IMG/VR virus record: IMGVR_UViG_3300042888_001512
Coordinates: 1 to 42,730 of that record
From: a virus
Length of the DNA: 42,730 nt
Reading direction: 5' to 3' (one strand)
Shown: piece after piece, positions 20,217-36,369 of the stretch
How the letters are laid out: each line of letters begins with the position of its first letter
Position numbering within the stretch: position 1 is the first letter of the stretch
Translations under genes and position numbers: made by a program
The notes under the pieces: model-generated
What the model was told of the DNA's origin: nothing
The model's input: only the letters and a program-made list of their open reading frames with translations
Databases searched by the model: none

Positions 20217-21131
20217 TTATTTTCTAATCACATTATAATTACCTTCGAACCAATCTATAGTTTCTTTTAACCCTTCATAAAGTGGTGTAAATTTAAAGTT
20301 AGGTAGGTAATTTTTAATTTTAGAATTATCACTTGGTTTTCTAAATTGACCATCAGGCTTTGATGAATCAAATATAACGTCTCCTTTGAAGTTCATCAAT
20401 TCTACAATGATACCAACGACTTCTTTTATCGATATTTCTTCCGATGTAGATAAAATGATTGGTTCGTTTTCTTCATAATTATTTAATACCCATTCAGTAA
20501 GTTTAGATACATCTCTACTAAAAATAAATTCTCTTAGTGGAGTACCACTACCCCAAATAGAAAAGTCTGTTTTATTTTCTCTAGCCAAATAACATTTATG
20601 AATTAATGACGGTATTACATGCCCATTCTCTATGTCGTAATTATCTTTTGGACCATAAATATTTGTCGGTATTACTGATTTATAGTTAACACCATATTGT
20701 TCATTATACGACTTAATTTGTACATCTACCATTCGTTTCGCGTATGCATAAGCATCATTAGAAAAATGTGGTGGACCTAAATGTATTTTTTTTTCAGTTA
20801 GCGGGTAATCAACATCATTAGGGAACACACACGTAGATAAAAATGCAACTAGTTTTTTAACACCAAATAATCTTGCACTTTCAATTATATTTGTGTTCAT
20901 CATTATGTTGTCGTAAAAAAACTCACCCTTATATTTCATATTACTACCAACTCCACCTACTTTTGCCGCACAATGTATGATACCATCAAAATTATGAGAC
21001 TCTATTAAAGTGTTAACTTCACCAGTAATTCTAAAATCCACATCTTTTGATGTGGGTTTAAAATATTGTTCACCGATAAATTCAGATCCAACTAAACCAC
21101 TTCCTCCTGTAACTAATATTTTATTTCCCAT
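20217..21131 (-). CDS. fcl: GDP-L-fucose synthase (GDP-4-keto-6-deoxymannose epimerase/reductase)
   Basis: The enzyme converts GDP-4-keto-6-deoxy-D-mannose to GDP-L-fucose with NADPH, in the cytoplasm. It is an extended short-chain dehydrogenase of 304 residues. It has the nucleotide-binding motif TGGSGLVG (8-15), the WcaG-type segments HCAAKVGGVGSNM (53-65) and LSTCVFP (98-104, with the conserved Cys), and the catalytic Tyr128/Lys132 in YAYAK. Length matches the family (about 310-320). Its ATG overlaps the end of the GDP-mannose dehydratase gene by 11 bases, so the two steps of the pathway are coupled. With GT10 and GT11 fucosyltransferases in the same run, the product is clearly intended for transfer. 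Confidence 0.93.
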   Translation of the reverse strand: MGNKILVTGGSGLVGSEFIGEQYFKPTSKDVDFRITGEVNTLIESHNFDGIIHCAAKVGGVGSNMKYKGEFFYDNIMMNTNIIESARLFGVKKLVAFLSTCVFPNDVDYPLTEKKIHLGPPHFSNDAYAYAKRMVDVQIKSYNEQYGVNYKSVIPTNIYGPKDNYDIENGHVIPSLIHKCYLARENKTDFSIWGSGTPLREFIFSRDVSKLTEWVLNNYEENEPIILSTSEEISIKEVVGIIVELMNFKGDVIFDSSKPDGQFRKPSDNSKIKNYLPNFKFTPLYEGLKETIDWFEGNYNVIRK

Positions 21132-22098
21132 AATATTCTAACCAGTATTCTAACATTTCATCTAACATAGTTTCAAAAGTATAAATAGGGTTCCAATCTA
21201 ATTCTTTCTTTAGTTTAGAAGAATCACCTTTTAAAATTTCTAACTCCTCAGGTCTAAAATGTTTTTCATCTACAACAATATAATCTAAATAATTTAATTG
21301 TAAATAATTAAAAACGTATTCACAAAGGTCTTTTACGGAATGTGAAACTCCTGTTGAACAGACGTAGTCATCTGGTTTATCTGACTGCAACATCAACCAC
21401 ATTGCGTAGACATAGTCTTTTGCATGACCCCAATCTCTTGTTGCAGTTAAATTCCCAATATGTAATTTATCTTGTAACCCTAATTTAATCCTAACCGCAG
21501 CCTTAACTACCTTATTAGTAACAAAGTTTGTCCCTCTTCTCGGTGATTCGTGATTAAATAGAATACCGTTCCATATTTTCATATCATAAGAATTTCTATA
21601 ATTTCTACAGATATTATATGAAAATACTTTTGCACATCCATATGGGGATACTGGATTCATAGGTGTGGTTTCTCTTTGGTATCCATCGGAATCAATGGAA
21701 TTTCCAAACATTTCAGATGAAGATGCCTGATAAATTTTCGACTGTGGGGATACCATTCTTATCGCCTCTAAAAGATTAAGTGTACCCACACCAGTAACAT
21801 TTGCAGTATATATTGGTTGATCGAAACTAATTCTAACGTGTGATTGTGCAGCCAAATTATAAACTTCATCTGGTTGTACTTTAGATAAAATTCTAATTAA
21901 CGATGCCATATCCGTTAAATCCGCATACTCTAAATTTATTAAATTACCATCTCTTAAAGATTCAATTCTTGATGATTGTGTTTCAGATACTGAGTTTCTT
22001 TTCACAGTTCCCCAAACCTCATATCCCTTTTCTAAAAGAAATTCTGCTAAATATGAGCCATCTTGCCCATTAATTCCAGTTATAAGTGCTTTTTTCAT
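21121..22098 (-). CDS. gmd: GDP-mannose 4,6-dehydratase
   Basis: The enzyme takes GDP-D-mannose to GDP-4-keto-6-deoxy-D-mannose, the first committed step to GDP-L-fucose (or GDP-rhamnose and related sugars). The short-chain dehydrogenase of 325 residues shows TGINGQDGSYLAE (7-19), NLAAQSHV (81-88), ASSSEMFG (125-132) and catalytic Tyr153/Lys157 in YGCAK. The substrate-side motif LFNHESPRRG is intact. It is somewhat shorter than the usual bacterial enzyme (about 350-370). The next gene encodes the second enzyme of the route. No mannose-activating enzyme (ManC/ManB) is certain here, so GDP-mannose is presumably drawn from the host, although nucleotidyltransferases of unknown specificity are present nearby. 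Confidence 0.95.
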   Translation of the reverse strand: MKKALITGINGQDGSYLAEFLLEKGYEVWGTVKRNSVSETQSSRIESLRDGNLINLEYADLTDMASLIRILSKVQPDEVYNLAAQSHVRISFDQPIYTANVTGVGTLNLLEAIRMVSPQSKIYQASSSEMFGNSIDSDGYQRETTPMNPVSPYGCAKVFSYNICRNYRNSYDMKIWNGILFNHESPRRGTNFVTNKVVKAAVRIKLGLQDKLHIGNLTATRDWGHAKDYVYAMWLMLQSDKPDDYVCSTGVSHSVKDLCEYVFNYLQLNYLDYIVVDEKHFRPEELEILKGDSSKLKKELDWNPIYTFETMLDEMLEYWLEYYGK

Positions 22099-22538
22099 TT
22101 TTTATATTTTTTAATGTAATCTGAACATATACCTAAACATTCAGTTAATTCCCAATCTTTTACCGATTCAGGTAACACCGCAATTGATCGCGATGTTAAT
22201 TTTTTACCAGGAAATGTCCATATAAAATTTTTAGAAGTTAGTGTTATATCATCTTCTTGATGCCAGAAGTAGTTAATTTCATACCCACATTCCTGAAAAT
22301 ACAATATAGATTCTATATTTTTACAATGTACCCACAATTTAGATAATCTATCTTTAAACCATCTAAAATCTACACCGTATTGTGGTTTATCGTGTCCTAA
22401 AAATAACACACCATCTATATACCAAACATCTACCTCAACATCATAACCTTCACTGATTGCCTTATCTATGAACATTGGTTCGTTTTCATAAGACTCAAAC
22501 TTACCATTTAAGTTACCTCTATGAGAAATCAAAATCAT
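22095..22538 (-). CDS. Short glycerophosphodiester phosphodiesterase-like protein
   Basis: The family cleaves glycerophosphodiesters with a TIM-barrel fold. At 147 residues this is well below the usual 230-300, yet the active-site pattern is complete at the N-terminus: SHRG (residues 5-8), YENE (17-20), VEVDVW (34-39) and LGHD (47-50). The C-terminal half of the barrel is shortened but retains strand-like segments. It overlaps the SGNH gene upstream and the gmd gene downstream by 4 bases each. In this context it may act on glycerol-phosphate-containing glycans or simply bind a phosphodiester. Substrate is unknown. Similar short forms occur in polysaccharide loci. Confidence 0.72.
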   Translation of the reverse strand: MILISHRGNLNGKFESYENEPMFIDKAISEGYDVEVDVWYIDGVLFLGHDKPQYGVDFRWFKDRLSKLWVHCKNIESILYFQECGYEINYFWHQEDDITLTSKNFIWTFPGKKLTSRSIAVLPESVKDWELTECLGICSDYIKKYKK

Positions 22539-23173
22539 ATTAAACCCTTCTCTTTAAACCTTTCTAATATAATCGACATACTCGTTTGACTTAAATGCAT
22601 ATTTGATCTTGGCCACGTATCCAAATAGTAGGTATTTGTTTCGTTATTTTCATTAATCATATCGTGAAATATTGTAACAAACCCAACATTATTTTTATTA
22701 CACAATTCCTCTATGTATCTATTGAATTCTTTTGTTACTAAATTTCTCTCGATACAGGTGCCAAAACTAGGTCCTGTATATAATCTTGATTCATGCCAAG
22801 ATGCGATAGGACCCCAAACAATACAATTAATACCTCTATCTTTATATGATAGAATAACACTAAAATATTTGTCAACACATTCTTTAACAATACTATCTAA
22901 AGGTAAATTCTGTAATGACATTTGTTTAATTAAATGTGCCCTAATATCCACCTCACCAAAACAGAATAATAAACTATCATTTTCTTGATAGTGTTTTGAA
23001 ATTATGTCGTCAATTAAATGTTTTTTATTTTCTAGTTGGTATGCAGTTGCGGGACCTAATCTATAACTTTTAAAATATGGTAATGTGTTTGATGCGATTT
23101 CAGGCCACTCAGGTTGCATTTTTTCTTCACCACTAAAAACTGCAGAATGGCTATCACCTATACAATGTATCAT
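22535..23173 (-). CDS. SGNH/GDSL-type hydrolase, possible glycan esterase
   Basis: SGNH hydrolases are serine esterases or acetyltransferase partners, often acting on O-acetyl groups of sugars. The 212 residues begin with CIGDSHSAVF, giving the block I serine (Ser8) of the GDSx motif. FCFGEVDIR (about residues 70-78) occupies the block III region, and LDTWPRSNMHLS near the C-terminus supplies the DxxH-like catalytic Asp and His. There is no signal peptide, so it acts in the cytoplasm. Its start overlaps the upstream glycosyltransferase gene by 20 bases. Addition or removal of an acyl group on the phage glycan is the likely role; which one cannot be told. Confidence 0.75.
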   Translation of the reverse strand: MIHCIGDSHSAVFSGEEKMQPEWPEIASNTLPYFKSYRLGPATAYQLENKKHLIDDIISKHYQENDSLLFCFGEVDIRAHLIKQMSLQNLPLDSIVKECVDKYFSVILSYKDRGINCIVWGPIASWHESRLYTGPSFGTCIERNLVTKEFNRYIEELCNKNNVGFVTIFHDMINENNETNTYYLDTWPRSNMHLSQTSMSIILERFKEKGLI

Positions 23174-24137
23174 ATTTTATAATATTTTCACTTAAATTGT
23201 TATAAAAATTAATTTCATCTTGTTCACCATTTTCACCACCAATACCCCATGGGTTTTGATTACCGTAAACAGTATTAAACATAGGGTGAATACCAAATCC
23301 ATTTTTAACAAATAAGAACTTTTTATTGTTGTCCCTTTTGTATTTATTTAACGCTATTTCATCGTATGCGTCTACTGTTGGATGTGATAATATATTAACC
23401 CATTCAGATGTTTTTATAAAAAACATACTATTAGTGAAATATGGTGAATGGATTTCAAATAATTCATAATTATTATCGGAAGTAAATTTATCAATATTTT
23501 TTAAAATATAGTTATTAATTTCCATCTGAGCTTCATATGAAATCCTAAGTGGGTGAATACCTTTTGTAATAGTGTTTAATGAATTTAAACCTTCGTAAAA
23601 CTTATTATAATCCCATTCAGTAGCGTTTATTGTAAACTGATTCAAAGGTGTGTAGTCTACACTCCATAAACCATTTGGCATTGGTCTGTTTAAAAAATGT
23701 TTATAAACAATATCTCTAACTGAAAAATCATCAATAAAATCATTAATAAAAAAATCACATGATGGAATATTATTAGACATAGTTGGTGCTAAAGTTAATA
23801 CTTCATCATTGTTTAATATATCAACATTTTCAATTAGGTAATCCCAAACATAATTGTTAATAAAACAATCTTCATCTAATTTAACTGAATATTCAGTATC
23901 AGTTGAAATAGCAATTCTTATTTTATTTAAGTAATTATGGTGTGCGTTAATTACATGTATTGTATATTCAATACCTAAACTATCACATTTATTAACCCAA
24001 TCATTGTCATGCGTTGCTAAAACATTTAATTTTAATTTTAGTTTATTTTCTGGTTTTATTTTAGATAGAAAATAAAACATTAAATTTGAGTAATCTAATC
24101 TATTGTGTGATAAATAATTTATAGTTATTGTTTTCAT
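23154..24137 (-). CDS. Probable GT-A type glycosyltransferase
   Basis: The 327-residue soluble protein starts with a strand and loop (TITINYLSHNRLDYSNLMFY) like GT-A enzymes. The segment YSVKLDEDCFINN (about residues 83-95) is a good candidate for the acidic DxD donor site. The later segments NPWGIGGENGEQDEINFYNN and FGIHPMF may form the acceptor side. It overlaps the SGNH gene by 20 bases and the next gene by 4. No specific CAZy family is assigned. The glycosyltransferase call is supported by fold pattern and context and is weaker than for the GT2, GT10, GT11 and GT25 genes. Confidence 0.65.
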   Translation of the reverse strand: MKTITINYLSHNRLDYSNLMFYFLSKIKPENKLKLKLNVLATHDNDWVNKCDSLGIEYTIHVINAHHNYLNKIRIAISTDTEYSVKLDEDCFINNYVWDYLIENVDILNNDEVLTLAPTMSNNIPSCDFFINDFIDDFSVRDIVYKHFLNRPMPNGLWSVDYTPLNQFTINATEWDYNKFYEGLNSLNTITKGIHPLRISYEAQMEINNYILKNIDKFTSDNNYELFEIHSPYFTNSMFFIKTSEWVNILSHPTVDAYDEIALNKYKRDNNKKFLFVKNGFGIHPMFNTVYGNQNPWGIGGENGEQDEINFYNNLSENIIKYDTLYR

Positions 24138-24925
24138 TTCATATAATTTTGTCTAATAAATTGTTTTAATTCACAATTTTTAGGGTAATTAACTCTTTTA
24201 ACAGAGAAATAACCTTGATTGAATTTTTCAACAATTTGATTTATTGTTATTACCCAATTATAATTAGGTTTATTTGATGGGTCGTAAGTACCAAAGTAAG
24301 GTGGGAACTCCCATTGTTGTCCGCTAAGTAAAATCATATAAGGTAGAAAAATATTTATCATATCATCATTAGGGTAATATTCTAAACATTTGTCTAAATG
24401 CTGCTTAGCCAATAACATAACTTCTTTTGTTACTGTCATACATTCCCAATTAGCACTCATAGGTAAATCTATATTGTATTCTAGATATAAATTTTTAGGG
24501 TCCCAACGACCATATGGTTGCTGTAATGGAAACCCTACAATAGTTTTGTCTGAGTCTTTCCCATTATATGATGAAACCCAATCTTCAGTATTTAAAAATT
24601 GTGCATAATTAACACCTTTTTCAAAGTTAATTCCATTTATAAAGTATTGGTTAGATGAAACTAAACAAAAGTGTTCAAAACTATTTATTTCTTCTTCACT
24701 TATATTTTTAATTAAATCAATCAATGCACCAAAAATAAAACTAGAATGGTTTAAAGGACCAACCATATGACGCATTCTAATTTTAGGATGATCTAATGTT
24801 GGGTGATTAATCATGAAATCACAATTATCATGGAAATAAGATATGTTAGATATCATATCATCAACATCTTCAGTCGTATGTGTTGTTGAATGAGCAAATA
24901 TTATAAACGCTGTTTTAGATTTCAT
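24134..24925 (-). CDS. Possible GT14-like (core-2/I-branching type) glycosyltransferase
   Basis: The 263-residue protein begins TAFIIFAHSTTHTTEDVDDM, followed by FHDNCDFMINHPT, LVSSNQYFINGINFEKGVNY and a WECMTVTKE segment (about residues 170-180). This order resembles branching-enzyme-like transferases (GT14 and related), where SxxDxPL-type loops precede the acceptor site. No signal or membrane segment is present. Overlaps are 11 bases with the aldolase-like gene and 4 with the next gene. If correct it would add a branch sugar. The alternative is another GT-A family with a similar layout. Confidence in transferase function is moderate. Confidence 0.55.
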   Translation of the reverse strand: MKSKTAFIIFAHSTTHTTEDVDDMISNISYFHDNCDFMINHPTLDHPKIRMRHMVGPLNHSSFIFGALIDLIKNISEEEINSFEHFCLVSSNQYFINGINFEKGVNYAQFLNTEDWVSSYNGKDSDKTIVGFPLQQPYGRWDPKNLYLEYNIDLPMSANWECMTVTKEVMLLAKQHLDKCLEYYPNDDMINIFLPYMILLSGQQWEFPPYFGTYDPSNKPNYNWVITINQIVEKFNQGYFSVKRVNYPKNCELKQFIRQNYMK

Positions 24926-25913
24926 TTATAGTTTTTATTAATTCGTCAATTCTGTTGTGTATTGCTTGTTGTACTTCAGAATCTAAATTGTTATAATTCA
25001 ATTTATTTTTAAGTTCAATAAATTTAGGTTCAGAGAAAACATAATGACCACTTATGTTTATGATTTCTTCTTTGTTATCTTCTGGTATAAAATCAGCGTC
25101 AACCCATTTTACCCATCTTTTTGATTCATAACAAATTTCATAAAATTCATCTAGTAATTCTATATGATTAGTTTTAATTATGTTTAAAATAATTTTTGTT
25201 TCTATTTGTCCAAATTCTGGGGCAATATTGATACAGTTTAACCCATTATTAAATTTCGATTTAACTAATTCATTTGTTAGGTAATCACCATTATGTTCTT
25301 TTGAAATCATATCATGATTTCTGGCAACTTTAACCATTTCAATCAACCTATCTTGATTAAAATTACCGATGTTTGTGTTACCTTTTAATGCTGTTCCAGA
25401 TTGGATTACAGCGTATTTAATTTGGCCATATATGTCTAACGGTAGTAATTCTTTTAAGTCTTCTAAAAGATTGTTTAATTCTATTTCATTTGTTGGTCTG
25501 ATTGCTTCTTCAGTTCCAACCTCAAATAACATGTTTGGATTTAATCTATAACCTTTTAAAATAAATTCAACTGTGGCTAATAACCCATCACGATATTCTT
25601 TATGTTTTTTCCAAACATCAACATGTATTATATCGAAATATTTGCAATCTTCAATAAAAGAATCTATACCGTCATCTTCACTATACCCTTGTGATGGTCC
25701 AGCATGGTCTCTTACTAATAAGATTTTATTAGATTTGCTTCTTACATATTCGCAGAAGTCTTTAGTTGTCCAATTGTTAACATAACCACCATTAAACTCT
25801 ACTTGCCTTCTAGATGGTATTAACCCAATTTCAACGTTATTTTCATTTGAGTAATTAATAATTGCGTCAACAATATTTTTACTCATCGGTCCTATAAATA
25901 TTTTTGGTTTCAT
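24915..25913 (-). CDS. GatZ/KbaZ-type tagatose-bisphosphate aldolase-like protein
   Basis: GatZ/KbaZ proteins are TIM-barrel partners of the class II tagatose-bisphosphate aldolases. The 332 residues show the family segments IGLIPSRRQVE (about 31-41), LLVRDHAGPSQGY (about 65-77), LFEVGTEEA and KEHNGDYLTNE (about 205-215), all in the expected order. Typical GatZ is about 420 residues, so this is a shorter version. No GatY/KbaY catalytic partner is seen, which suggests it works alone, perhaps building or cleaving an unusual sugar precursor. It is followed (upstream in sequence) by a nucleotidyltransferase-kinase, cupin and HAD phosphatase in the same transcript. Reaction unknown. Confidence 0.8.
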   Translation of the reverse strand: MKPKIFIGPMSKNIVDAIINYSNENNVEIGLIPSRRQVEFNGGYVNNWTTKDFCEYVRSKSNKILLVRDHAGPSQGYSEDDGIDSFIEDCKYFDIIHVDVWKKHKEYRDGLLATVEFILKGYRLNPNMLFEVGTEEAIRPTNEIELNNLLEDLKELLPLDIYGQIKYAVIQSGTALKGNTNIGNFNQDRLIEMVKVARNHDMISKEHNGDYLTNELVKSKFNNGLNCINIAPEFGQIETKIILNIIKTNHIELLDEFYEICYESKRWVKWVDADFIPEDNKEEIINISGHYVFSEPKFIELKNKLNYNNLDSEVQQAIHNRIDELIKTINEI

Positions 25914-25925: not shown

Positions 25926-27476
25926 TTATTTATAAAACACTTTGTAAAGATTAAAGCGACCAAAATAATATAAAAACTCACCCATTTTGTAATCATGTAA
26001 TGGCGACATGTTTAACCATATGATTGCTGTCAGTGTTTGAACCTTTTTTAAATCTAATCCATTGTCAAGAATCCACTTATGTAACTTTTCTCTACAATTA
26101 GTTAAAATATCACTTCTTAAAATATCACATTTAATACCGTTTGATGATTTTTTAACTGAGAATAATTCTTTATGGACAATATCGTGATTGAATAATAAAT
26201 TGTGATTTAATTTAGCTAAGTCATAATAGATGTCACCATTTTTTAAATCACCACCAAAATCTTGTCTCCAATCTAACAAAACAAATTCACGATTACCTTT
26301 ATAAATTATATTATCTAAAATGTAATCACCATGAAATTGATAATAAGTGTCTGAGCATAACCAATTTTTATTTATTTCTTTTATCATATCAATAACTGGT
26401 GGTACTACCATACCATTGATGGTAATTTCTTCATCACTTATTTTATTATCATTAAATAATTTTTGTAATCGTTCATAAGTTTTATCAAAATAAAACTTTT
26501 TAGTTATTTTTTTAAAGTCTTCAGACTGACCATGTTTAACCCATAGGTTGTTTTTACTCCAATCTAAAAAATCTTCAAAAATAATTTCATTTACTGACGT
26601 TGCTAATAAATCACCAGCAGCATATTCGTATTTGTAAAAATTATCTTTACTATCAATCAATTTAGGTGTTAAACCATATAGTTGTTTACATCGTTCAACT
26701 CTGTTAGCACAAATTGTTTTATTATAGAAAAATTTAATAACAAAATCATTAAATAAAAATATTGATTCATCTACTTTATCTAACAATTCAAATTTGTCAT
26801 ATATAACTTCTCTGGCATGTTTTAATTCAAACACATTACCTATGTCTAACCAATTAAAATATTCTTTTGTTTCCCATTTAATATTCATTCGATTGATTGA
26901 GTGACAATCGCTTAATGTTGTATCGCTAGTATCTGCTTCATATTCCTCTTGTAGTGAATCCCAAAACAGTTTATAATCTTTTATACCAGCAAGTCCAATA
27001 TAAGCAAAATTAGACGTTAAATCACCTTTATCATTTATCATTCTATTAGGGATAAAAGATAAAGTTCTATATTGTGAATTGTTTTCTTTGAATTGACAAG
27101 CTAACCAGTTTTCTGTTGGTTCTTTAATTTCTTCAGTTATAATAGTATCAGCTGCATGAAATATAAATGGACATCGTAATTCATCTTTAGCTTTTAACAT
27201 TGAGTAACCAAGTGATGAACCTTCACCTTCATATTTATCAACTTCTATAAATGTAATTTTTCTTTCTGGATAAGCTAGTGTTAAAAAATCTTTAACTTGT
27301 TCTCCAAAATAACCAACAGTTACAACTAATTCAACTTCTTTAGGATATGCTTCTACGATATATGATATCGCTGGTTTTTTACCAACTCTAACTAAACATT
27401 TATTAGTGTATTTAGTTAAATCACCTAATCTAGAACCAACACCACTAGTAGTTATTAAAACTTTATACTCGACCAT
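25926..27476 (-). CDS. Bifunctional sugar nucleotidyltransferase and APH-type kinase
   Basis: Residues about 1-235 form a nucleotidyltransferase: LITTSGVGSRLGDLTKYTNK (GxGxRL, with Lys of the following KCL/KKP), and FIFHAADTII with the metal-binding Asp. Residues about 240-516 form an aminoglycoside/choline-kinase-like phosphotransferase with the Brenner motif FHGDYILDNIIY (about 379-390) and LLDWRQDFGG (about 402-411). The fusion would phosphorylate a small substrate and then activate it as an NDP derivative, much as separate LicA and LicC do for choline. It overlaps the cupin gene by 14 bases. Donor nucleotide and substrate are unknown. Confidence 0.85.
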   Translation of the reverse strand: MVEYKVLITTSGVGSRLGDLTKYTNKCLVRVGKKPAISYIVEAYPKEVELVVTVGYFGEQVKDFLTLAYPERKITFIEVDKYEGEGSSLGYSMLKAKDELRCPFIFHAADTIITEEIKEPTENWLACQFKENNSQYRTLSFIPNRMINDKGDLTSNFAYIGLAGIKDYKLFWDSLQEEYEADTSDTTLSDCHSINRMNIKWETKEYFNWLDIGNVFELKHAREVIYDKFELLDKVDESIFLFNDFVIKFFYNKTICANRVERCKQLYGLTPKLIDSKDNFYKYEYAAGDLLATSVNEIIFEDFLDWSKNNLWVKHGQSEDFKKITKKFYFDKTYERLQKLFNDNKISDEEITINGMVVPPVIDMIKEINKNWLCSDTYYQFHGDYILDNIIYKGNREFVLLDWRQDFGGDLKNGDIYYDLAKLNHNLLFNHDIVHKELFSVKKSSNGIKCDILRSDILTNCREKLHKWILDNGLDLKKVQTLTAIIWLNMSPLHDYKMGEFLYYFGRFNLYKVFYK

Positions 27477-27816
27477 ATTTATCTTCTATTCTAATAACGT
27501 CATCTAGAAAATTTGTAGAACTTTCTAAATACAAACTGTCAACGATTGCCGACATTCTGTGAACTACAAATGGTTCAATAGTGTAATACTCACCTTCATT
27601 TAAAATCATTTCGGTTAAGGTGTCTTTGTCTGGACCAATTTCAAATTTAATTTGACCTTTTAAAACATAAAAAGATTCATGTTTTTTCTCATGGTACTGT
27701 AAGCTGCAACTATTTCCAGCTGTCATGAATAATTCTTTAACAACATAATTTTCATTAACTTCAATCCATTTTTCCCATCCCCATGGTTTATCAACTTTTG
27801 TAACTTCTTTTTTCAT
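27463..27816 (-). CDS. Cupin of the mannose-6-phosphate isomerase C-terminal type
   Basis: This 117-residue single cupin starts KPWGWEKWIEV, the signature segment of type II phosphomannose isomerase and GDP-mannose pyrophosphorylase C-terminal domains. It continues with SLQYHEKKHESFYVLKGQ (residues about 38-55), giving the two His and Glu metal ligands, and later PFVVHRM with the last His. It may isomerise or epimerise a phosphosugar. It lies between a HAD phosphatase and the nucleotidyltransferase-kinase, overlapping the latter by 14 bases, so it is probably a step in the same activation pathway. It is shorter than a full PMI, and substrate is not determined. Confidence 0.83.
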   Translation of the reverse strand: MKKEVTKVDKPWGWEKWIEVNENYVVKELFMTAGNSCSLQYHEKKHESFYVLKGQIKFEIGPDKDTLTEMILNEGEYYTIEPFVVHRMSAIVDSLYLESSTNFLDDVIRIEDKYGRV

Positions 27817-29542: not shown

Positions 29543-30173
29543 AACGATATACAGAAATTCCTTTTTTATAAATTGTTTCGCTAATAAAGTCTTTTTCATG
29601 TTTTAATTCAGTAATTAACCCATTTTTTAATTTTCTATCAAATTCATCTGAACCAACATTAACAACTGTGTCATGGTAAATTACATAAGCGTTATCATCT
29701 AAAAAAGGTAATACTAATTCAGTATCTAATTTAATCCCATGTTCTGTATGGTCACCATCAATAAAAACCATTTGGAATTTAATATTTAAGCTTTCTAACC
29801 ACTTTCTTGCTTCTTCTGAATGACTATCACCAAAAAAACTTTTTAATTCACCAAAGTTCTTTAAATGATTAAAATTATTATCTCTAGCGTTAGGGTTGCC
29901 ATCATAACTAATCGATGGATGTACATTTAAATCCATCACATAAACATCTTTAATTTTTAAAAAGTCAGTAAAGATTCTAGTGTTCCCACCAGCAGCAACA
30001 CCTATTTCTAGGAAATTATTAATTTCAGTGTCTTGATAAGTTACTAAAAAATCTGTTATTTCTTCTGGACATTGTTGTAATTCATAACCTCCTTTGAAAT
30101 TACCTCCAAATACCTCTACGCAGTCTGAACCAGCGTTTAATACGAAATCTAATATTTCTTCTTTTGTTTTCAT
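29529..30173 (-). CDS. Class I SAM-dependent methyltransferase
   Basis: The 214-residue protein has the SAM-binding motif FLEIGVAAGGNTRIF (about residues 53-67), acidic residue YVMDLNVHP for the ribose hydroxyls (about 77-85), and VFIDGDHTEHGIKLD (about 136-150) followed by YVIYHDTV, typical of the Methyltransf_24/CmcI-like families that use a metal near the active site. It probably O-methylates a sugar or a small precursor. It lies 3 bases from the cupin gene at 30177 and overlaps the transferase-like gene downstream. Target not identifiable from sequence. Confidence 0.83.
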   Translation of the reverse strand: MKTKEEILDFVLNAGSDCVEVFGGNFKGGYELQQCPEEITDFLVTYQDTEINNFLEIGVAAGGNTRIFTDFLKIKDVYVMDLNVHPSISYDGNPNARDNNFNHLKNFGELKSFFGDSHSEEARKWLESLNIKFQMVFIDGDHTEHGIKLDTELVLPFLDDNAYVIYHDTVVNVGSDEFDRKLKNGLITELKHEKDFISETIYKKGISVYRYVKG

Positions 30174-30176: not shown

Positions 30177-30497
30177 TTAATTTATATATTTATCATTATT
30201 TGATGATGGTGTTTTAACAACAACTGTAACAACATCAGTTATACATTTGAAATCGGTGGATTCATTTGGTTGAATGGTTATTATATTATCTTTTTTATAT
30301 TTTACACCATTCATTTCAACTTCACCTTCAACAATTACAGTGATTTCAGTTGCTATTTTATGGTGGTGTTTTTCTTCATAATCACCAGCTTTATATCGTT
30401 TAACCGCAACTTCAAAATGTTCATTATCGATTAAGGTTGGTTTAAAGTTACCAACAAACCAACCTTTAATATAATCATTTAAATTTGTAAGTGTCAT
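30177..30497 (-). CDS. Small single-domain cupin
   Basis: The 106-residue protein has VAVKRYKAGDYEEKHHHKIATEIT (about residues 30-52), in which the HHH cluster and a Glu supply metal ligands of cupin motif 1, followed by IVEGEVEMNGVKYKKDNI and a motif 2 region with no clear His. It is a different type from the phosphomannose isomerase-like cupin at 27463. Position between two methyltransferase genes (3 bases and 1 base) suggests a role in the same sugar tailoring branch, possibly an isomerase or an epimerase, or a binding protein. Function not known. Confidence 0.75.
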   Translation of the reverse strand: MTLTNLNDYIKGWFVGNFKPTLIDNEHFEVAVKRYKAGDYEEKHHHKIATEITVIVEGEVEMNGVKYKKDNIITIQPNESTDFKCITDVVTVVVKTPSSNNDKYIN

Positions 30498-30498: not shown

Positions 30499-31206
30499 TT
30501 AATAAGTTAATAAAACACCAGTATCTTGAACCATTGTTCTGTTAGCGTCATTCCATTCTTCAAAATCCCATTTGTTTGTTGTCATATCATCATAAAAACG
30601 TCTAACTTCTTTTAATCTGATATCCCAAATATTATCAATAACAATTAACGTTTCTTTATGAGAAAACTTTAATGCGTGTTCCCAATCTTTTTTAGCACCT
30701 TCATATGAATGATCGCCATCAATAAAGATTAAGTCATAACCACCTTCTGGTGCTATACTTTCTAAAATATTATGGTTCATTTCAAATAACTCTTCGTTGG
30801 TATGATTTAAAAAATCTTTAAAAACAATACCTTCATCAGTTAATTTCCATTCATCGTAATCTGTTTTATAAGGATACCAATACATTGGTTTTATTCTTTT
30901 TGGTAAATTATCTGATGAACCATATCCATCACATCCACCTAATTTAATATCAAATGTGTGTATAATACCTTCATCTGGTTTTAAATATGTATCCATACCG
31001 TTTGACATCGATATAGTGCTATCGTAATGGTATGAACCAATTTCTAATATGTTATTAGGTTTTACCATTCTTACTAATGTATTTAAACATGCTCTACAAT
31101 GTGTTGCACATCCAGCATATTTTGTACCTTGAAGGATACCATTTTCTGGTCCTTTATCAATGTAGTAATCTTTAAAATTTTCTTTAATAAATTCTATTTT
31201 ATTCAT
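30499..31206 (-). CDS. Class I SAM-dependent methyltransferase (second)
   Basis: The 235-residue protein has ILEIGSYHYDSTISMS (about residues 53-68) as SAM motif I, TFDIKLGG for the ribose-binding acidic residue, and LIFIDGDHSYEGAKKDWEHA (about 159-178), followed by LIVIDNIW. The FIDGDHSYEG signature is that of the Methyltransf_24 family seen in cephalosporin hydroxylase-like and glycan-modifying enzymes. A CATHCRAC motif (about residues 33-40) precedes the SAM domain and is unusual. It is coupled by TAATG to the downstream putative transferase. Probably an O-methyltransferase for a sugar. Confidence 0.83.
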   Translation of the reverse strand: MNKIEFIKENFKDYYIDKGPENGILQGTKYAGCATHCRACLNTLVRMVKPNNILEIGSYHYDSTISMSNGMDTYLKPDEGIIHTFDIKLGGCDGYGSSDNLPKRIKPMYWYPYKTDYDEWKLTDEGIVFKDFLNHTNEELFEMNHNILESIAPEGGYDLIFIDGDHSYEGAKKDWEHALKFSHKETLIVIDNIWDIRLKEVRRFYDDMTTNKWDFEEWNDANRTMVQDTGVLLTY

Positions 31207-31988
31207 TAGAAATGTGGGTAATTTAATTGTATTGTTATTTTTGTGTTATTATTAGTTTCAATTTTTATATTATGGTCTAAATGGGAATTAAATTTATTTG
31301 ACACCTCATTTGAATTATTGTGTTCTAAAGCACCCCATTCAAAAGTTGTTTCTGGCATCATATTTTTTGTTTTAAAACCTTCATTAGTTATTAACCATAT
31401 TCCGTATAATATGAAATCAAAACACCACCAATCATTTATTATTTCATGATAATTATCTAATTTACTTAAATATTCATAAAACCTAAAAAAGGTGTTTTTT
31501 TCATATACATGTATTTCGTTAAACCACCAATATTGCGAAAAATTATTTGTTTCTTGTATTAAAATTTCGTTATTAATTAAGTTCATTTTTTCAGCAGTAT
31601 TTTTTATAACGTCACCACCTTTTAAACTGTTGTTCACTTTTAATATTTTTGAATCAAAAATTTCTTTATAAACAATATCAGTATCAATATTACGAACAAA
31701 TTTTATTTCACTATCTAAAACACCTATGTAATCGTAACGTTCAAATACGTCTCTCAACCCAAAAAGTTTTTTAACAGTAATTATACTACCACTATTAACT
31801 AATTCTTGATCTAAAATTATTGAATCGTATTTTTTATCTGTTAGTGTTGAAAACACTTTTGCTTCTTCAGAATTAGAAAAAACAAAAAATATATCATCAC
31901 TAGAATGGTATCTAAATGAGTCCAATAAATTAATACCATAACCAAAATGTGGTTGGTAAATCGGGATGATTGTCGCTGTTTTACTCAT
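31206..31988 (-). CDS. Putative glycosyltransferase
   Basis: I chose the ATG at 31988 (MSKTATIIPIYQPHFGYGIN); the longer TTG frame from 32027 would overlap the upstream gene. The 260-residue protein shows IFFVFSNSEEAKVFSTL, an acidic candidate donor site YIGVLDSEIKFV (about residues 88-99), and NDWWCFDFILYGIWL near the acceptor region. This layout resembles uncharacterised GT-A proteins of polysaccharide clusters. No membrane helix is clear. It follows the neighbouring transferase-like gene by 7 bases. A transferase role is likely from context, family not assigned. Confidence 0.58.
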   Translation of the reverse strand: MSKTATIIPIYQPHFGYGINLLDSFRYHSSDDIFFVFSNSEEAKVFSTLTDKKYDSIILDQELVNSGSIITVKKLFGLRDVFERYDYIGVLDSEIKFVRNIDTDIVYKEIFDSKILKVNNSLKGGDVIKNTAEKMNLINNEILIQETNNFSQYWWFNEIHVYEKNTFFRFYEYLSKLDNYHEIINDWWCFDFILYGIWLITNEGFKTKNMMPETTFEWGALEHNNSNEVSNKFNSHLDHNIKIETNNNTKITIQLNYPHF

Positions 31989-31995
31989 ATTTAAT

Positions 31996-32727
31996 TCAAT
32001 TACATGTGTTATATAGAGATTCAACAATTAGTTGAATCTCATGTGAATACTTCTTATGGTTTATATTGTTTATTATATTAATACCGTCTATAAATTCTAA
32101 ATGTTCTTTAAAGTTTTCAACAAAGTATTCACCTATTAATTTTTCAGAATAAAAATTTTCATCATCAAATTTTAGTTTTTTAACATATTCATAAACATTA
32201 CTTATGTTTTTTAAAATATTAAAATCACCAAAAATAAATTTATCTTCAACAACCCCAAAAATTTCATTTCTAAACAAATAAGCAGTATCTTTTACATTAA
32301 AATCAGAAATTATTTTGTTAGGTGTAATAAATGGTAAGTTATCTAACCTAGTGATTATCATAAAATCATAATTCTTTGTTATTAATTCAACACTTTTTTT
32401 AATTGAATCTAACATCGATAAATTTCTATAAGGGTATAAATTATGTATATTAGTTTTTATCGGTAAATCTAATTTTTTACATTCATCAATATACATACAT
32501 GTATTATAATCTCTTATTTCAAAATTGAAATTTTCTACGTCTTTCGTTAACCCATTGATTAATTCATCGTTAATTTTATTTTCATCAAATTCAGAAATAG
32601 AATCTGGTATTGAGTAATAAAAATTAATTTCATGTTTATTTTTATCACATAAATCGTAAATTCTATTCAGATTGTTTAAATTTGATGAATCACCTAAAAA
32701 ACCATAAAATACAACACAAATTTTCAT
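31996..32727 (-). CDS. Putative glycosyltransferase
   Basis: The ATG at 32727 is preferred to an upstream TTG (32736), leaving one base after the stop of the HAD-nucleotidyltransferase gene. The 243-residue protein begins MKICVVFYGFLGDSSNLNNL and contains YPYRNLSMLDSIKKSVELI and a candidate donor site MIITRLDNLPFI (about residues 123-134). TRLDN-type sites and the preceding helix pattern are seen in uncharacterised GT-A proteins next to capsule genes. The region LFRNEIFGVVEDKFIFGD may contact the acceptor. Soluble. Evidence for activity is indirect. Confidence 0.55.
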   Translation of the reverse strand: MKICVVFYGFLGDSSNLNNLNRIYDLCDKNKHEINFYYSIPDSISEFDENKINDELINGLTKDVENFNFEIRDYNTCMYIDECKKLDLPIKTNIHNLYPYRNLSMLDSIKKSVELITKNYDFMIITRLDNLPFITPNKIISDFNVKDTAYLFRNEIFGVVEDKFIFGDFNILKNISNVYEYVKKLKFDDENFYSEKLIGEYFVENFKEHLEFIDGINIINNINHKKYSHEIQLIVESLYNTCN

Positions 32728-32728
32728 A

Positions 32729-34102
32729 TTAATCAATAAAATGTTCTAAATAATTTTTTAAATCTTCTGGTGTACCTAAACCCCACATTTTTTCAATGTT
32801 ATACGGTTTAAATTTAAAACCATCAGATATAGCTTCATTGTAAACTGGTGCAACATAAAACTCATTATTAACTCTAATGTTTTTTTCAATCATTTGTTCT
32901 GCATATTTAACATAATCAGAACCTTTATTCCAATAATATACCCCAACAGTTGCAATATCACTTATAGGTTTTTTTTCAGCTATTTCAGTTATATAACCAT
33001 TTTCATTTAATTTAACAAAAGACCATTTAGGGTGTGTTGCTTTAAATGTTAACATACCTCCATCTAAATTGTCGTTAGTCATAGAATAGTAGAAACTATT
33101 ACTATCCCACTCAACAAATTGGTCTGAATTTGCTATAAGTAAATGTTTATTATTATTTATATATTCTTTAGCTAAAAGAGTTGTACATGCAGCACCTTCA
33201 GTTACACCGTCAACTTGAACTATTTCGCAATTAGGTGTGATTAGGTTTAATAGGTATTTTAAATTATATTTTTCATAGTGTTCCTTTTGTACTATGTAGA
33301 TAAAATTAGCTTTAATATTTAAGTTTTCAATTACCACTTGAATCATCGGTTTATTATTAACTTCTATAAGTGGTTTAGGGAATGTATATCCAGCTAAACT
33401 AAATCTAGAACCAGCACCTGCCATCGGAATTAAAATGTTAAATTCATCCGATTCCCATTTTTGTTCTGTTTTAGATCCATACGTTACACTTTTAATTAAT
33501 TTTGTTATCTTATCATAGGTAACATCATTTGGTGTTTCTACTGCACATAAATAAGCACCAGAATCCAATGCGGCTTGTCTTCCATGGAAACTATCTTCAA
33601 TAACCATAGTTTCATTTGGTTTAACCCCAGCATGTACCATGCTTTTAAGATACATTTCTGGGTGTGGTTTTGAATATTTGACATCTTCATTACCAAAGTA
33701 ATGATCAACATATTCTAAAAGACCAGTTTTATGTAACATTAATTTAATAGATTCTCTAATAGAATTAGATGCGACATATATTTTATAACCATCTTTTTTA
33801 AGTTTCCTTAAAACATCTTTTAATTTTAAATCTTCTTTTAATTGTTCTTTTATCACATCAAAAGTTAATGTTTGTTTTAACTCCCAAATTTTATTATGAG
33901 TTGACTGCGGTAACCCTTTATCTGTAGATAATAAATTTAATTTGGTTTTGGTTGGTAACCCATCGTATTTAGTTAAGTGTTCTTCTCTGTTTATAGCAAA
34001 TTTCCCATCAATTTGTTCTAAAGCTTTATTTAACGATTCGTAATGTATTTCTTTAGCATCTACTAATACACCATCTAAATCAAAAACTATTAATTTAATC
34101 AT
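32729..34102 (-). CDS. Fusion of HAD phosphatase and sugar nucleotidyltransferase
   Basis: Residues about 1-205 are a beta-phosphoglucomutase-like HAD domain: VFDLDGVLVD (Asp8, Asp10), YVASNS, YSKPHPEMY with the motif III Lys, and MVIEDSFHG. Residues about 220-457 are a nucleotidyltransferase: ILIPMAGAGSRFSLAGYTFPKP with the GxGxRF...KP signature, and LLIANSDQFVEWD with the metal-binding Asp. Both active sites look intact. The pairing suggests a phosphosugar is dephosphorylated at one position or isomerised and then activated as an NDP-sugar. It abuts its neighbours by one base on either side. Substrate unknown. Confidence 0.87.
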   Translation of the reverse strand: MIKLIVFDLDGVLVDAKEIHYESLNKALEQIDGKFAINREEHLTKYDGLPTKTKLNLLSTDKGLPQSTHNKIWELKQTLTFDVIKEQLKEDLKLKDVLRKLKKDGYKIYVASNSIRESIKLMLHKTGLLEYVDHYFGNEDVKYSKPHPEMYLKSMVHAGVKPNETMVIEDSFHGRQAALDSGAYLCAVETPNDVTYDKITKLIKSVTYGSKTEQKWESDEFNILIPMAGAGSRFSLAGYTFPKPLIEVNNKPMIQVVIENLNIKANFIYIVQKEHYEKYNLKYLLNLITPNCEIVQVDGVTEGAACTTLLAKEYINNNKHLLIANSDQFVEWDSNSFYYSMTNDNLDGGMLTFKATHPKWSFVKLNENGYITEIAEKKPISDIATVGVYYWNKGSDYVKYAEQMIEKNIRVNNEFYVAPVYNEAISDGFKFKPYNIEKMWGLGTPEDLKNYLEHFID

Positions 34103-34103: not shown

Positions 34104-34790
34104 TTAATTTAATTGTTTTAAAACATTTATTTTATTATTATTTGGTTCATTAAAAACCCTATCTTTACCCCCTTTAATTATAAATACACTAGAATTGGTA
34201 TTCATATTAAATTTATATTTTTCTCTAACTTGTTTGGACCATAAAACATCTTCACCTTCACCCCACGATAAACTTTCATCTAATGGGAATTCTAACATAA
34301 CATCTTTTTTGGCAACCCAATACGAACCAGATATGTACATATATTTAGATAAATGTGTCATATCATAAGGTATTAAACAATCTTTACCAATAATATCATC
34401 CATTTGATTACCATTTAATGGCCAAATACACCAATCTCTAAATCTTTCACCATTGTTATTTATTATTTTATCAATTCTTATTTTAAAATTATTACCAGAA
34501 GTTAACTGACCTTGATACCATCCTTCCATTAATTTTATATAATCATGTAAATAAACAATATTTTCAAATTTAGACTCTTTAGTGATTAAATTTTTCTTTT
34601 TTGTTATCCAAGCCTTTTTTAAACTCTCGTCAAAATTTAAAATTTTAGTATTTTTTCTTACAATACTACAGTTACCCACAATTAATATTTCATAATTGGG
34701 TATATTTTCATTTTCTATTGAGTCGATGATCTCATTTATCATCGTATCGTTGTTACCGCCAGTTATTATCCCAAATGTAAAATCCATCAT
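34104..34790 (-). CDS. GT2-like glycosyltransferase
   Basis: The 228-residue protein starts FTFGIITGGNNDTMINEIID, with NYEILIVGNCS (about residues 32-42) as the second strand of a GT-A fold. The donor-site region is less canonical (VYLHDYIKLMEGWY, about 79-92, HDY in place of DxD). YISGSYWVAKKDVMLEFPLD and SWGEGEDVLWSKQVREKY (about 172-190) fit the GG and ED acceptor-side motifs of GT2 enzymes. It overlaps the GT10 gene by 4 bases in ATGATG context. Likely a soluble transferase of unknown specificity. Confidence 0.72.
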   Translation of the reverse strand: MMDFTFGIITGGNNDTMINEIIDSIENENIPNYEILIVGNCSIVRKNTKILNFDESLKKAWITKKKNLITKESKFENIVYLHDYIKLMEGWYQGQLTSGNNFKIRIDKIINNNGERFRDWCIWPLNGNQMDDIIGKDCLIPYDMTHLSKYMYISGSYWVAKKDVMLEFPLDESLSWGEGEDVLWSKQVREKYKFNMNTNSSVFIIKGGKDRVFNEPNNNKINVLKQLN

Positions 34791-35608
34791 TTAAATATTT
34801 TTGTATTCTTATATATCCAATCCTCGGATATTAAAAATTCTTTTGCCTTTTCAAAATTATTTTTTATACTTTCATATTTTTCATTATAGTCTTTTTCAGT
34901 TAAATTGTAAAGTATATTTTCTAACTCATCTACTGTATCAAATACTATAATACCATTAATATCAAAAAAATTTTCTATTGATGGACACCCATAGTATATG
35001 GGGATAGTACCTGTCATAAAACAATCTATTATTTTCTCAGTAAAGTAATAATCCATTTTTATATTTTCAATAACTATAGAAAACCTATAATCGATTAAAC
35101 CTTCCGTTTTTAACTCTATTGGTTTATATCCTCTACCGTAAGTGGTAATTACATCTTTAAATTTATCAATTATCACATGTCTTAATTTATGACCATGTGT
35201 TGTTTTCTTATTAGAGGATATGATAGATACTAATTTGTTTTTTTCATATATTTTTTGTTTTTCTTTAGGTATCCAACATCCACCATGTGGATAAAATAAA
35301 TAATTTTCACCAATATCTAACAAATCTTTATTATATGTTAAAACATTTTTAAAATCATTATTTACTGTTTTAATAAAATTATAAATGTAAGGATTAACAG
35401 ATGGGGGTTCTAATAACCAACCAATTTTATTTTCTGAGTTACCAATATTTAAATTTAGAAAATTATCCGTAAAGAAAGTAGTGTCTTCTAAATTTAAATT
35501 TTCATCCCTATACCACTCAATAAATTTAGATGTTTGGTGATCAGTACTATATTTTGCATGTGAAAAATTAGCGTCAAATATTTTTACTTTTTTTAAATTC
35601 GAATCCAT
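34787..35608 (-). CDS. GT10 alpha-1,3-type fucosyltransferase
   Basis: GT10 enzymes transfer L-fucose from GDP-fucose to N-acetylglucosamine or glucose in an alpha-1,3 (or 1,4) linkage, as in Lewis antigens. Of 273 residues, the family signature is clear at 175-210: YRFSIVIENIKMDYYFTEK followed by IIDCFMTGTIPIYYGCPSI, where the Glu, Tyr and Lys contact GDP-fucose. GRGYKPIELKTEG (158-170) precedes it as expected. No transmembrane anchor, unlike animal enzymes; no heptad-repeat tail, unlike Helicobacter pylori FucTs. It overlaps the GT11 gene by 16 bases, and the GDP-fucose route is encoded in the same run. Family call secure, linkage inferred. Confidence 0.9.
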   Translation of the reverse strand: MDSNLKKVKIFDANFSHAKYSTDHQTSKFIEWYRDENLNLEDTTFFTDNFLNLNIGNSENKIGWLLEPPSVNPYIYNFIKTVNNDFKNVLTYNKDLLDIGENYLFYPHGGCWIPKEKQKIYEKNKLVSIISSNKKTTHGHKLRHVIIDKFKDVITTYGRGYKPIELKTEGLIDYRFSIVIENIKMDYYFTEKIIDCFMTGTIPIYYGCPSIENFFDINGIIVFDTVDELENILYNLTEKDYNEKYESIKNNFEKAKEFLISEDWIYKNTKIFK

Positions 35609-36369
35609 TCTTTAGGTATTAAATCACTGTCATTTATATTTGTTTTTTCTGAAAACCAAATCTTTGGACAAATTATTTTTTTGTTTTTATTTTTATTTAA
35701 CCATGCACCCCACCAAGAAAAAGATGAATTTGCGTTAATATTATTATCACAGTTTTTTATAACTGATAAATCAAATACCTCATCTTCGTAATGAGAATAA
35801 TAAACGTTTTCACCTTTTATATTTTCTTTACACCACCCAATGTCGTCAGAAATAACTATAAAATTATTATCCTTAAAATATTTCATAGATTCTATGTAGT
35901 ATTCTATAGGGCAAGATGGGTGAACGTCTTTAAATTTTAGATAATCACCTCTTCTAACATGAATCGATGTTAAACTTTTACCATTTCTAATTGTATCTAA
36001 ATAATCATTAACTATCTTATCTACATCATCAAAGTAGAAAATTTCTTTTATATAATTTTCTTGATCTTTAAAATATTTTTCACTTTGAAAATATCCGTTA
36101 AGTATTACATTTTTCATATTCGGTATTTCCGAAAAATTAAAATTAAGTTCTTGATATGTAATTAAATTATCACTACTATCAATTACTTTATTTTTTATGT
36201 TTTTAAATATTGTATTAGAATAGTGATTAGAAGGTTTACCCTGATTTGGGGTTTGACAATTACTAAAGTCAAAATAATAATCACTACCTACTTTTTTTGC
36301 GTAACCAATAGTTGTTGCAATTTGAAACATTTGATTACCTAACCCACCTAATAAATTACATGTTATCAT
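35593..36369 (-). CDS. GT11 alpha-1,2-type fucosyltransferase
   Basis: GT11 enzymes add L-fucose from GDP-fucose, usually alpha-1,2 to galactose (H-antigen type). The 258-residue protein carries all signatures: LLGGLGNQMFQIATTIGYA (6-24), SIHVRRGDYLKF (135-146, binding the GDP diphosphate), and SSFSWWGAWL (215-224) near the C-terminus. It is a little shorter than typical bacterial FutC (about 300). No membrane anchor is present. Coupled to the upstream GT2 gene by ATGA and to the GT10 gene by a 16-base overlap. Family assignment is firm; some GT11 enzymes make other linkages, so alpha-1,2 is an inference. Confidence 0.94.
   Translation of the reverse strand: MITCNLLGGLGNQMFQIATTIGYAKKVGSDYYFDFSNCQTPNQGKPSNHYSNTIFKNIKNKVIDSSDNLITYQELNFNFSEIPNMKNVILNGYFQSEKYFKDQENYIKEIFYFDDVDKIVNDYLDTIRNGKSLTSIHVRRGDYLKFKDVHPSCPIEYYIESMKYFKDNNFIVISDDIGWCKENIKGENVYYSHYEDEVFDLSVIKNCDNNINANSSFSWWGAWLNKNKNKKIICPKIWFSEKTNINDSDLIPKEWIRI

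Follow-up and report, generated by a model that had tools for sequence, protein, structure and literature searches.

A phage-borne island with genes for GDP-L-fucose synthesis and two fucosyltransferase families, and its candidate role in virion glycosylation

Why does a phage carry enzymes for making GDP-L-fucose together with two different families of fucosyltransferases, and onto what might it place the sugar? We considered this question for a stretch of 42,730 bases (hereafter the window), which is an entire virus record. Because terminase, portal, protease and capsid genes are aboard, the fucose cluster is phage-borne; the record is probably a fragment. It comes from a large environmental phage of a T4-like lineage, the host of which is probably one of the Bacteroidota. 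The fucose genes sit in a 19-kb island that occupies a fixed place from PhoH to dUTPase (Table 1). As an earlier note on this DNA had described, the four open reading frames lie in one minus-strand run, gmd and fcl overlap (by 11 bases) as do the GT10 and GT11 genes (by 16 bases), and the catalytic and donor motifs of all four products are kept.

Table 1. Features of the window, in order of position.
Coordinates	Strand	Assignment	Basis or occurrence
7393..9147	+	Major capsid protein	phrog_138; served to choose relatives
19425..20180	-	PhoH, near island boundary	in 12/13 relatives
20217..21131	-	Fcl, predicted GDP-L-fucose synthase (GDP-4-keto-6-deoxymannose epimerase/reductase), animal-like type	solved relatives, residues
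21121..22098	-	Gmd, predicted GDP-mannose 4,6-dehydratase	family matches, catalytic residues
22095..22538	-	Uncharacterised; phage S-SM2 relative at 39%	no meaningful Pfam match
22535..23173	-	Uncharacterised, perhaps GDSL/SGNH hydrolase	PF13472 E 0.0095, below cut-off
23154..24137	-	Uncharacterised, glycosyltransferase-like by eye	no Pfam match
24134..24925	-	Uncharacterised, glycosyltransferase-like by eye; kept in L019, L027	below-cut-off Pfam at most
24915..25913	-	Uncharacterised, perhaps GatZ/KbaZ aldolase-like; kept in L019, L027	PF08013 E 0.0047, below cut-off
25926..27476	-	Nucleotidyltransferase (CTP:phosphocholine cytidylyltransferase-like), C-terminal part weakly APH-like	family searches
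27463..27816	-	Cupin resembling mannose-6-phosphate isomerase C-terminal domain	family searches
27818..28177	-	Small HAD-like phosphatase	family search
28194..28886	-	Uncharacterised, weakly GT2-like	PF00535 E 0.0039, below cut-off
28886..29599	-	Uncharacterised; sole island protein with borderline hydrophobic segment	hydropathy
29529..30173	-	Methyltransferase (Methyltransf_24)	family search
30177..30497	-	Small cupin-like protein by eye	no Pfam match
30499..31206	-	Methyltransferase (Methyltransf_24)	family search
31206..32027	-	Uncharacterised, glycosyltransferase-like by eye	no Pfam match
31996..32736	-	Uncharacterised, glycosyltransferase-like by eye	no Pfam match
32729..34102	-	Fusion: HAD (beta-phosphoglucomutase-like) and NDP-sugar pyrophosphorylase	family searches
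34104..34790	-	Uncharacterised, glycosyltransferase-like by eye; adjoins GT10 also in L019, L027	below-cut-off Pfam at most
34787..35608	-	Predicted GT10 fucosyltransferase	PF00852; structure model
35593..36369	-	Predicted GT11 fucosyltransferase, HVRRGDY motif	PF01531; structure model
36366..37232	-	GT2-type glycosyltransferase with GWSPED loop	weak PHROG 'galactosyl transferase' match, E 1.6e-5
37244..37864	-	GT25-family glycosyltransferase	family search
37861..39267	-	Two-domain GT2, recurrent far island boundary	in 13/13 relatives
39523..40086	-	dUTPase, beyond far boundary	in 12/13 relatives
40691..41938	-	Glycosyltransferase phrog_7162, outside island	in 11/13 relatives

With regard to the supply of the sugar nucleotide, Gmd matched PF16363 over its full length (406 bits; positions 1-332 of 332) and slightly missed the cut-off of TIGR01472 (404.5 bits; cut-off 415); the catalytic Ser/Thr-Glu-Tyr-Lys set is present as SSSE and YxxxK, a Ser replacing the E. 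coli Thr as it does in Arabidopsis GMD. Fcl scored 236 bits against NF047922, under the cut-off of 500, and among solved structures it comes nearest to GDP-L-fucose synthases (4e5y, 323 bits). Its S99, C101, Y128, K132 and H171, comprising Ser-Tyr-Lys and the epimerase-site Cys and His, align with E. coli S107, C109, Y136, K140 and H179, which we take to be catalytic positions. Judged from their sequences, Gmd and Fcl should convert GDP-mannose to GDP-L-fucose; GDP-mannose pyrophosphorylase was absent from all family searches of the window proteins, and only the last two steps are encoded here.

Family search and structure prediction of the two fucosyltransferases, which the earlier note had proposed as a check, agreed with its assignment, as both models matched solved fucosyltransferases best. 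The GT10 protein scored 33.1 bits against PF00852 and the GT11 protein 98.7 bits against PF01531 (cut-off 23.9 in each case); neither had an NCBIfam match at E<=0.01. GT10 carries the YxF...EN...TEK donor motif, and its model (pLDDT 91.3) has the GT-B fold of alpha1,3-fucosyltransferases, with HpFucT and FUT9 as top Foldseek matches and GT10 alpha1,3-fucosyltransferases as all ten best chains; by VIA, Z was 16.0 to FUT9, with other GT-B enzymes close behind at about 15. Since GT11 had no significant solved relative by sequence, structure comparison was used instead: its model (pLDDT 94.2) matched NodZ, AtFUT1, POFUT1 and FUT8, all but one of the 47 chains at E<=0.001 were fucosyltransferases, and the protein has the HxRRxD motif and a fold in common with the NodZ, FUT8 and POFUT fucosyltransferases. 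By family match and modelled fold, GT10 and GT11 are thus predicted fucosyltransferases from GDP-fucose-using families; both are small and without hydrophobic segments, and could serve as tools.

While the interpretation of these genes as leading from GDP-mannose to GDP-L-fucose, with fucosyltransferases of two families, has stood, the accompanying view that such a combination is unusual in a phage has to be given up, as comparable sets occur in phages S-SRM01 and S-SCSM1 and in 12 of the 80 best IMG/VR GT10 loci, where all four genes lie within 10 kb either side. An alignment scan of IMG/VR yielded at least 578 confirmed GT10 relatives; a scan that used one sequence, the GT10 protein, gave no hits, its peptide patterns probably being too strict. 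Fucosylation gene sets recur in aquatic phages. No paper that links phages of Bacteroidota to a glycosyltransferase and to fucose turned up in a literature search.

As for the other island genes, low-threshold Pfam scans of ten unassigned proteins gave below-cut-off matches only; the product of the gene next to gmd (22095..22538) is, by eye, one that we take to be glycerophosphodiester-phosphodiesterase-like. No acceptor-making enzyme was identified in the island beyond GT2, GT25 and the weak PHROG 'galactosyl transferase' match. The alpha-1,2 and alpha-1,3/4 linkages and the difucosylated Lewis b/y-like product that the earlier note had in mind are conjectural.

To place the island in its lineage, we used 13 records selected by capsid protein as relatives. 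Window genes that lie outside the island, 24 in number, were found on average in 10.3 of the 13, and the 24 island genes in 1.67. A strong gmd match was present in just five relatives and a weak GT10 match in two, so fucose is no constant of the lineage, and the GDP-fucose genes at the PhoH end of the island recur in part of it. In one of the two nearest relatives (G014; capsid protein 86%), the matches to the 24 island genes were limited to gmd at 81%, the double GT2 at 68% and more distant versions of fcl, GT10, GT11 and GT2 at 32-43%. A place that is kept and an interior that is swapped are as expected if diversifying selection acts on an outer glycan. The island combines sugar-nucleotide enzymes, several glycosyltransferase families and variability among relatives, and in these respects belongs with the glycosylation ('LPS') clusters of the T4-like cyanophage type.

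We propose, giving the proposal about an even chance of being right, that this is a phage glycosylation island whose glycan is assembled in the cytoplasm, with a virion protein as its most likely carrier. The host would supply GDP-mannose, from which Gmd and Fcl would make GDP-L-fucose; GT2, GT25 and unclassified proteins would build an oligosaccharide, GT10 and GT11 would add fucose to it, and the methyltransferases and two nucleotidyltransferase fusions would attach other groups. Mycobacteriophages are a documented case of virion glycosylation, as told in PMC12619734, and chloroviruses, which make GDP-fucose, bear fucose on their capsid protein (PMC5408694). For membrane proteins, a first hydropathy script with a threshold of 1.6 gave mixed controls (an S-SM2 symporter at 2.14 and a photosystem D1 fragment at 1.85 passed; a high-light-inducible protein at 1.5 and an S-T4 'putative membrane protein' at 0.79 failed), and the E. 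coli colanic acid locus was therefore taken as the control; 4 of its 20 genes have three or more hydrophobic segments. By hydropathy, none of the 24 island proteins of the window has two or more, and no flippase, polymerase or initiating phosphoglycosyltransferase of a Wzx/Wzy-type surface polysaccharide locus is evident in the island, such genes possibly lying elsewhere in the genome. Across 18 islands, a borderline hydrophobic stretch occurred in 8 of 212 open reading frames, as counted from the strongest stretch in each, and the protein at 13449-15158, outside the island, has two such stretches. From the lack of an evident export or polymerisation membrane protein in the island we infer that assembly is cytoplasmic and uses a soluble acceptor.

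The same hydropathy result counts against the island remodelling the surface glycan (LPS or exopolysaccharide) of the infected host, for example against superinfection, with its transferases extending host lipid-linked intermediates that host flippase, polymerase and ligase then export. We consider this possible but unlikely; cyanophage clusters have been interpreted in PMC7824862 as modifying host LPS or capsule, and some of the cyanophage 'LPS' clusters lie near phoH according to PMC3037559. Moreover, lipid-linked glycans, too, are made with transferases that lack membrane segments (in the colanic acid locus, WcaA, WcaC, WcaE and WcaI have no hydrophobic segment and WcaL has one), so the island could borrow the host flippase and polymerase. 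Against remodelling of the host surface, no integrase was found among the window proteins searched, in a record that is probably a fragment, so a long-lived lysogen is not indicated.

T4 glycosylates its own DNA. DNA hypermodification with diverse glycans was reportedly described by Pyle et al. in 2024 (cited in PMC12619734); here, too, glycans might be placed on hypermodified bases of the phage DNA as protection from restriction. A thymidylate-synthase family protein was present in 4 of 17 records tested, but these four scored 278-308 bits against PF00303 and could be plain thymidylate synthases, the other 13 records, possibly fragments, have none, and no base-modifying enzyme was found among the window proteins searched. 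We consider this destination improbable. It is very improbable that the cluster is a free secondary metabolite pathway, as raised for another cyanophage cluster in PMC7824862, or mostly decaying cargo, the 'stuffer' DNA raised for cyanophage clusters in PMC3037559, given 19 kb of open, mostly overlapping or abutting genes with intact catalytic motifs and the recurrence of four-gene sets in other phage loci.

The Fcl of the window is unusually near to the animal enzyme, with 50% identity to it versus 34% to that of E. coli. Matches at E<=1e-60 were found in 4 of 148 genomes of the phylum of a Helarchaeota locus (38-41% identity); searches in the phyla to which a Flavobacterium genome (395 genomes) and a Chromobacterium genome (398 genomes) belong gave no match at E<=1e-68 among up to five candidates scored per genome, a result that, without a positive control, shows nothing. 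Should the Fcl of these phages indeed group with the animal enzyme and not with bacterial Fcl, its gene might have passed between phages and eukaryotes. Phage GDP-fucose synthases of an animal-like kind would also matter for how the eukaryotic pathway arose.

Building on virion glycosylation, we tentatively suggest, as a reading with the odds against it, that the interval between PhoH and dUTPase acts as a 'serotype' locus of the virion in a lineage of large, probably Bacteroidota-infecting T4-like phages. Fixed flanks, the double GT2 at one end, the opposite end supplying GDP-fucose in some members, and a freely exchanged interior would give near-identical particles different glycan coats, with the animal-type Fcl adding possible gene movement between phages and eukaryotes. 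Phages that bring along most of a sugar-decoration pathway are good subjects for learning what purpose phage glycans serve.

Among known systems, the freshwater Synechococcus phage S-SRM01 (MW015081) has, like the window, a gmd-fcl pair, GT10, GT11 (two copies), GT25, GT2 and a related nucleotidyltransferase and HAD phosphatase, all clustered within about 12 kb (193177-205028), with 34-49% identity for gmd, fcl, GT10 and GT11; unlike the window phage, it is a cyanophage with an additional NodZ-type transferase and a bacterial-type Fcl, which at 473 bits against NF047922 (versus 236 in the window) likewise misses the equivalog cut-off of 500. Cyanophage S-SCSM1, absent among the 20 GT10 records listed, is described in PMC9602691 as carrying gmd and fcl together with three fucosyltransferases: an alpha-1,2 enzyme and, unlike in the window, one of O-FucT and one of NodZ type. 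Cyanophages P-SSM2, S-SM2 and S-SSM7 share with the window phage large sugar-gene 'LPS' clusters in T4-like genomes that are polymorphic among relatives, that of P-SSM2 also near phoH (PMC3037559 and PMC7824862); S-SM2 and S-SSM7 have GT10 and GT11 but, unlike the window, no full-scoring gmd and fcl. The E. coli colanic acid locus resembles the island in its gmd-fcl pair inside a glycosyltransferase run and differs in having a flippase, polymerase, initiating transferase and Wzc, with no island counterparts by hydropathy. Finally, chlorovirus PBCV-1 infects eukaryotic algae, unlike the window phage, and is likened to it here by published description; as described in PMC5408694, it has its own GDP-L-fucose route (GMD/GMER) and carries fucose on its major capsid protein, bypassing the usual ER/Golgi route.

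The coordinates that an earlier note had proposed for Gmd, Fcl, GT10 and GT11 were confirmed, and family search and structure prediction, both suggested in that note, matched GT10 and GT11 best to fucosyltransferases. Gmd gave a full-length match to GDP_Man_Dehyd (406 bits) and 404.5 bits against TIGR01472 (cut-off 415), and, like its Arabidopsis counterpart, has Ser in place of the E. coli Thr. Fcl scored 236 bits against NF047922 (cut-off 500), the solved structures nearest to it belong to GDP-L-fucose synthases, and S99, C101, Y128, K132 and H171 align with S107, C109, Y136, K140 and H179 of the E. coli enzyme. GT10 passed PF00852 modestly (33.1 bits) and GT11 passed PF01531 strongly (98.7 bits); both AlphaFold models were confident (pLDDT 91.3 and 94.2), and both donor motifs vary little or not at all among phage relatives. 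The top ten Foldseek chains for GT10 were H. pylori FucT, human FUT9 and Arabidopsis FUT11, with a VIA-align Z of 16.0 for FUT9 and other GT-B enzymes near at about 15. All but one of the 47 chains matched by GT11 at E<=0.001 were fucosyltransferases (NodZ, AtFUT1, POFUT1, POFUT2, FUT8), the exception being a photosynthetic supercomplex chain. We regard the underlying observation as sound and the annotation as good, with the Lewis b/y-like epitopes raised in the note as a hypothetical product.

Features of the window, with occurrence among 13 relatives chosen by capsid protein
Feature	Position	Strand	Remark
Terminase, portal, maturation protease, major capsid genes	91-9147	+	family matches; capsid gene 7393-9147
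Late sigma factor-like	15584-16318		phrog_234, E 7.8e-5
Glycosyltransferase-like, outside island	16328-17104		weak phrog_3692 match; 13/13
Glycosyltransferase-like, by eye only	17109-18242		13/13
PhoH	19425-20180	-	near bracket of sugar genes
Fcl	20217-21131	-	5/13, 3 at >=233 bits
Gmd	21121-22098	-	7/13, 5 at >=405 bits, 2 weak
Second sugar or phospho-group block	24134-28177 and 32729-34790		HAD-pyrophosphorylase, HAD, cupin, nucleotidyltransferase fusion, 24915 and 24134 genes
GT10	34787-35608	-	2/13, 99 and 74 bits
GT11	35593-36369	-	4/13, 3 at >=147 bits
Double GT2	37861-39267		13/13
dUTPase	39523-40086	-	far bracket of sugar genes
Glycosyltransferase-like, outside island	40691-41938		phrog_7162; 11/13

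The window spans an entire IMG/VR virus record (42,730 bases), probably a fragment, in which a long minus-strand run comes after the plus-strand head genes and includes about 19 kb of sugar genes between PhoH and dUTPase. Most capsid and terminase relatives are T4-type phages, and Flavobacterium phage immuto, one of the closest isolates, carries the same head genes, annotated there as T4-like gp20 and gp23. Relatives were chosen through capsid-protein similarity, without use of GT10: among 25 of 80 capsid-matched records selected by length, 13 span the island (one of them stopping at the double GT2), three were fetched but cover one side only, one stops before PhoH, and eight, too short past the capsid gene, were not fetched. 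Outside the island lie 24 window genes, which occurred on average in 10.3 of the 13 relatives, a value lowered by cut records; for the 24 island genes the mean was 1.67. An order of PhoH with an adjoining gmd or fcl, variable genes, GT2 and dUTPase recurs among the relatives and is also seen in five site-spanning records chosen through GT10 (G029, G031, G045, G046 and G049). G014, with a capsid protein 86% identical, is among the two closest relatives; its gmd is 81% and its double GT2 68% identical, fcl, GT10, GT11 and GT2 have only distant matches there (32-43%), and we found none for the remaining island genes. The second sugar block is common to the window and one comparison record (L019) at 63-87% identity, and another (L027) has four of its six genes at 60-65%. 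The 16328-17104 and 40691-41938 proteins are candidates for a constant glycan core.

Family searches of the window proteins showed no GDP-mannose pyrophosphorylase; one nucleotidyltransferase fusion resembles CTP:phosphocholine cytidylyltransferase and the other joins an NDP-sugar pyrophosphorylase to a beta-phosphoglucomutase-like HAD, so that the record encodes only the last two pathway steps. GDP-mannose would presumably be supplied to the phage by its host. Of the 42 window genes examined for a Shine-Dalgarno-like motif (48 are listed), two have one upstream, with 1.8 expected from shuffling; the corresponding figures are 1/24 in immuto, 13/31 in cyanophage S-SRM01 and 11/20 in the E. coli colanic acid locus. 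This scarcity, as in the Flavobacterium phage and not the cyanophage, together with the immuto relatives, makes a Bacteroidota host likely, with a Microcystis phage scoring about equally to the immuto phages for capsid and terminase.

Window Fcl is 50.2% identical (151/301) to PDB chain 4e5y, an animal GDP-fucose synthase, and 34% identical to E. coli Fcl. In a midpoint-rooted tree of 38 rows, drawn from the matches listed in two search patterns and with one eukaryotic row, it clusters with 4e5y and phage sequences in a group of 16 rows (98/94), the nearer fork joining it with 4e5y being weak (90/69); Fcl of S-SRM01 and of LR756508 fall among bacteria. The sole cellular row of this group among the matches listed, L232, carries a Flavobacteriales label but is probably a misbinned phage contig (6.7 kb), because it has a late-sigma-like ORF (phrog_234, E 2.1e-6). 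Among the matches listed, the lineage Fcl thus appears to group with phage sequences and the single animal enzyme rather than with bacterial Fcl; the loci concerned are window Fcl, L232:2414-3355, L017 and L018.

In 19-residue hydropathy scans, no protein among the 24 of the island showed more than one hydrophobic segment, and one showed a single borderline segment; across 18 lineage islands (13 capsid-chosen, five GT10-chosen), a borderline stretch was seen in 8 of 212 ORFs. The colanic acid locus of E. coli, where gmd and fcl are likewise present, gave nine segments for WzxC, eight for WcaD and three each for WcaJ and Wzc, and no export route is therefore evident in the islands. We favour a virion protein as glycan acceptor, giving this about an even chance. 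Modification of the host surface by way of host machinery, the view put forward for cyanophages in passages of two papers (PMC7824862, PMC3037559), is a less likely alternative here, and glycosylation of phage DNA a rather improbable one. In a search of 17 records, four encode a thymidylate-synthase family protein, which could be an ordinary thymidylate synthase.

The earlier view that a phage GDP-fucose pathway with both fucosyltransferase classes is unusual proved wrong, since S-SRM01, S-SCSM1 and IMG/VR loci have comparable sets. The GenBank phage collection holds 20 GT10, 102 GT11 and 132 Fcl-like records. After removal of five GT10 records that repeat another (from the same phage, or equal to it in length and match), 15 were tested, including the near-twins S-SSM7 and S-SSM6a; 12 have GT11, three gmd (>500 bits), four fcl (>190 bits) and one, S-SRM01, all four. 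An alignment scan of IMG/VR gave at least 578 confirmed GT10 relatives. Among the best 80 of these loci (flanks up to 10 kb per side; thresholds of 90, 230 and 140 bits), GT11 occurs in at least 41, lying no more than 60 bases from GT10 in 24 of these; gmd occurs in at least 22, fcl in at least 25, gmd with fcl in at least 17 and all four in at least 12. The counts are lower bounds because flanks are cut, and some of the loci are near-duplicates. In the huge phage LR756504, GT25, GT10 and a weak GT11-like gene lie end to end (L005:19354-21523), with Fcl in a distant part of the genome (597 kb) and no gmd found. The four S-SRM01 genes share one cluster, where GT10 is annotated merely as 'putative transferase'; a passage of its paper names a NodZ-type fucosyltransferase (PMC8557907), and one on S-SCSM1 describes gmd, fcl and three fucosyltransferases of O-FucT, alpha-1,2 and NodZ type (PMC9602691). 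The class of gene set is already known, and what merits further work is the lineage, the exchange at a fixed site and the animal-like Fcl. Bacterial O-antigen loci likewise combine fixed flanks with a swapped interior.
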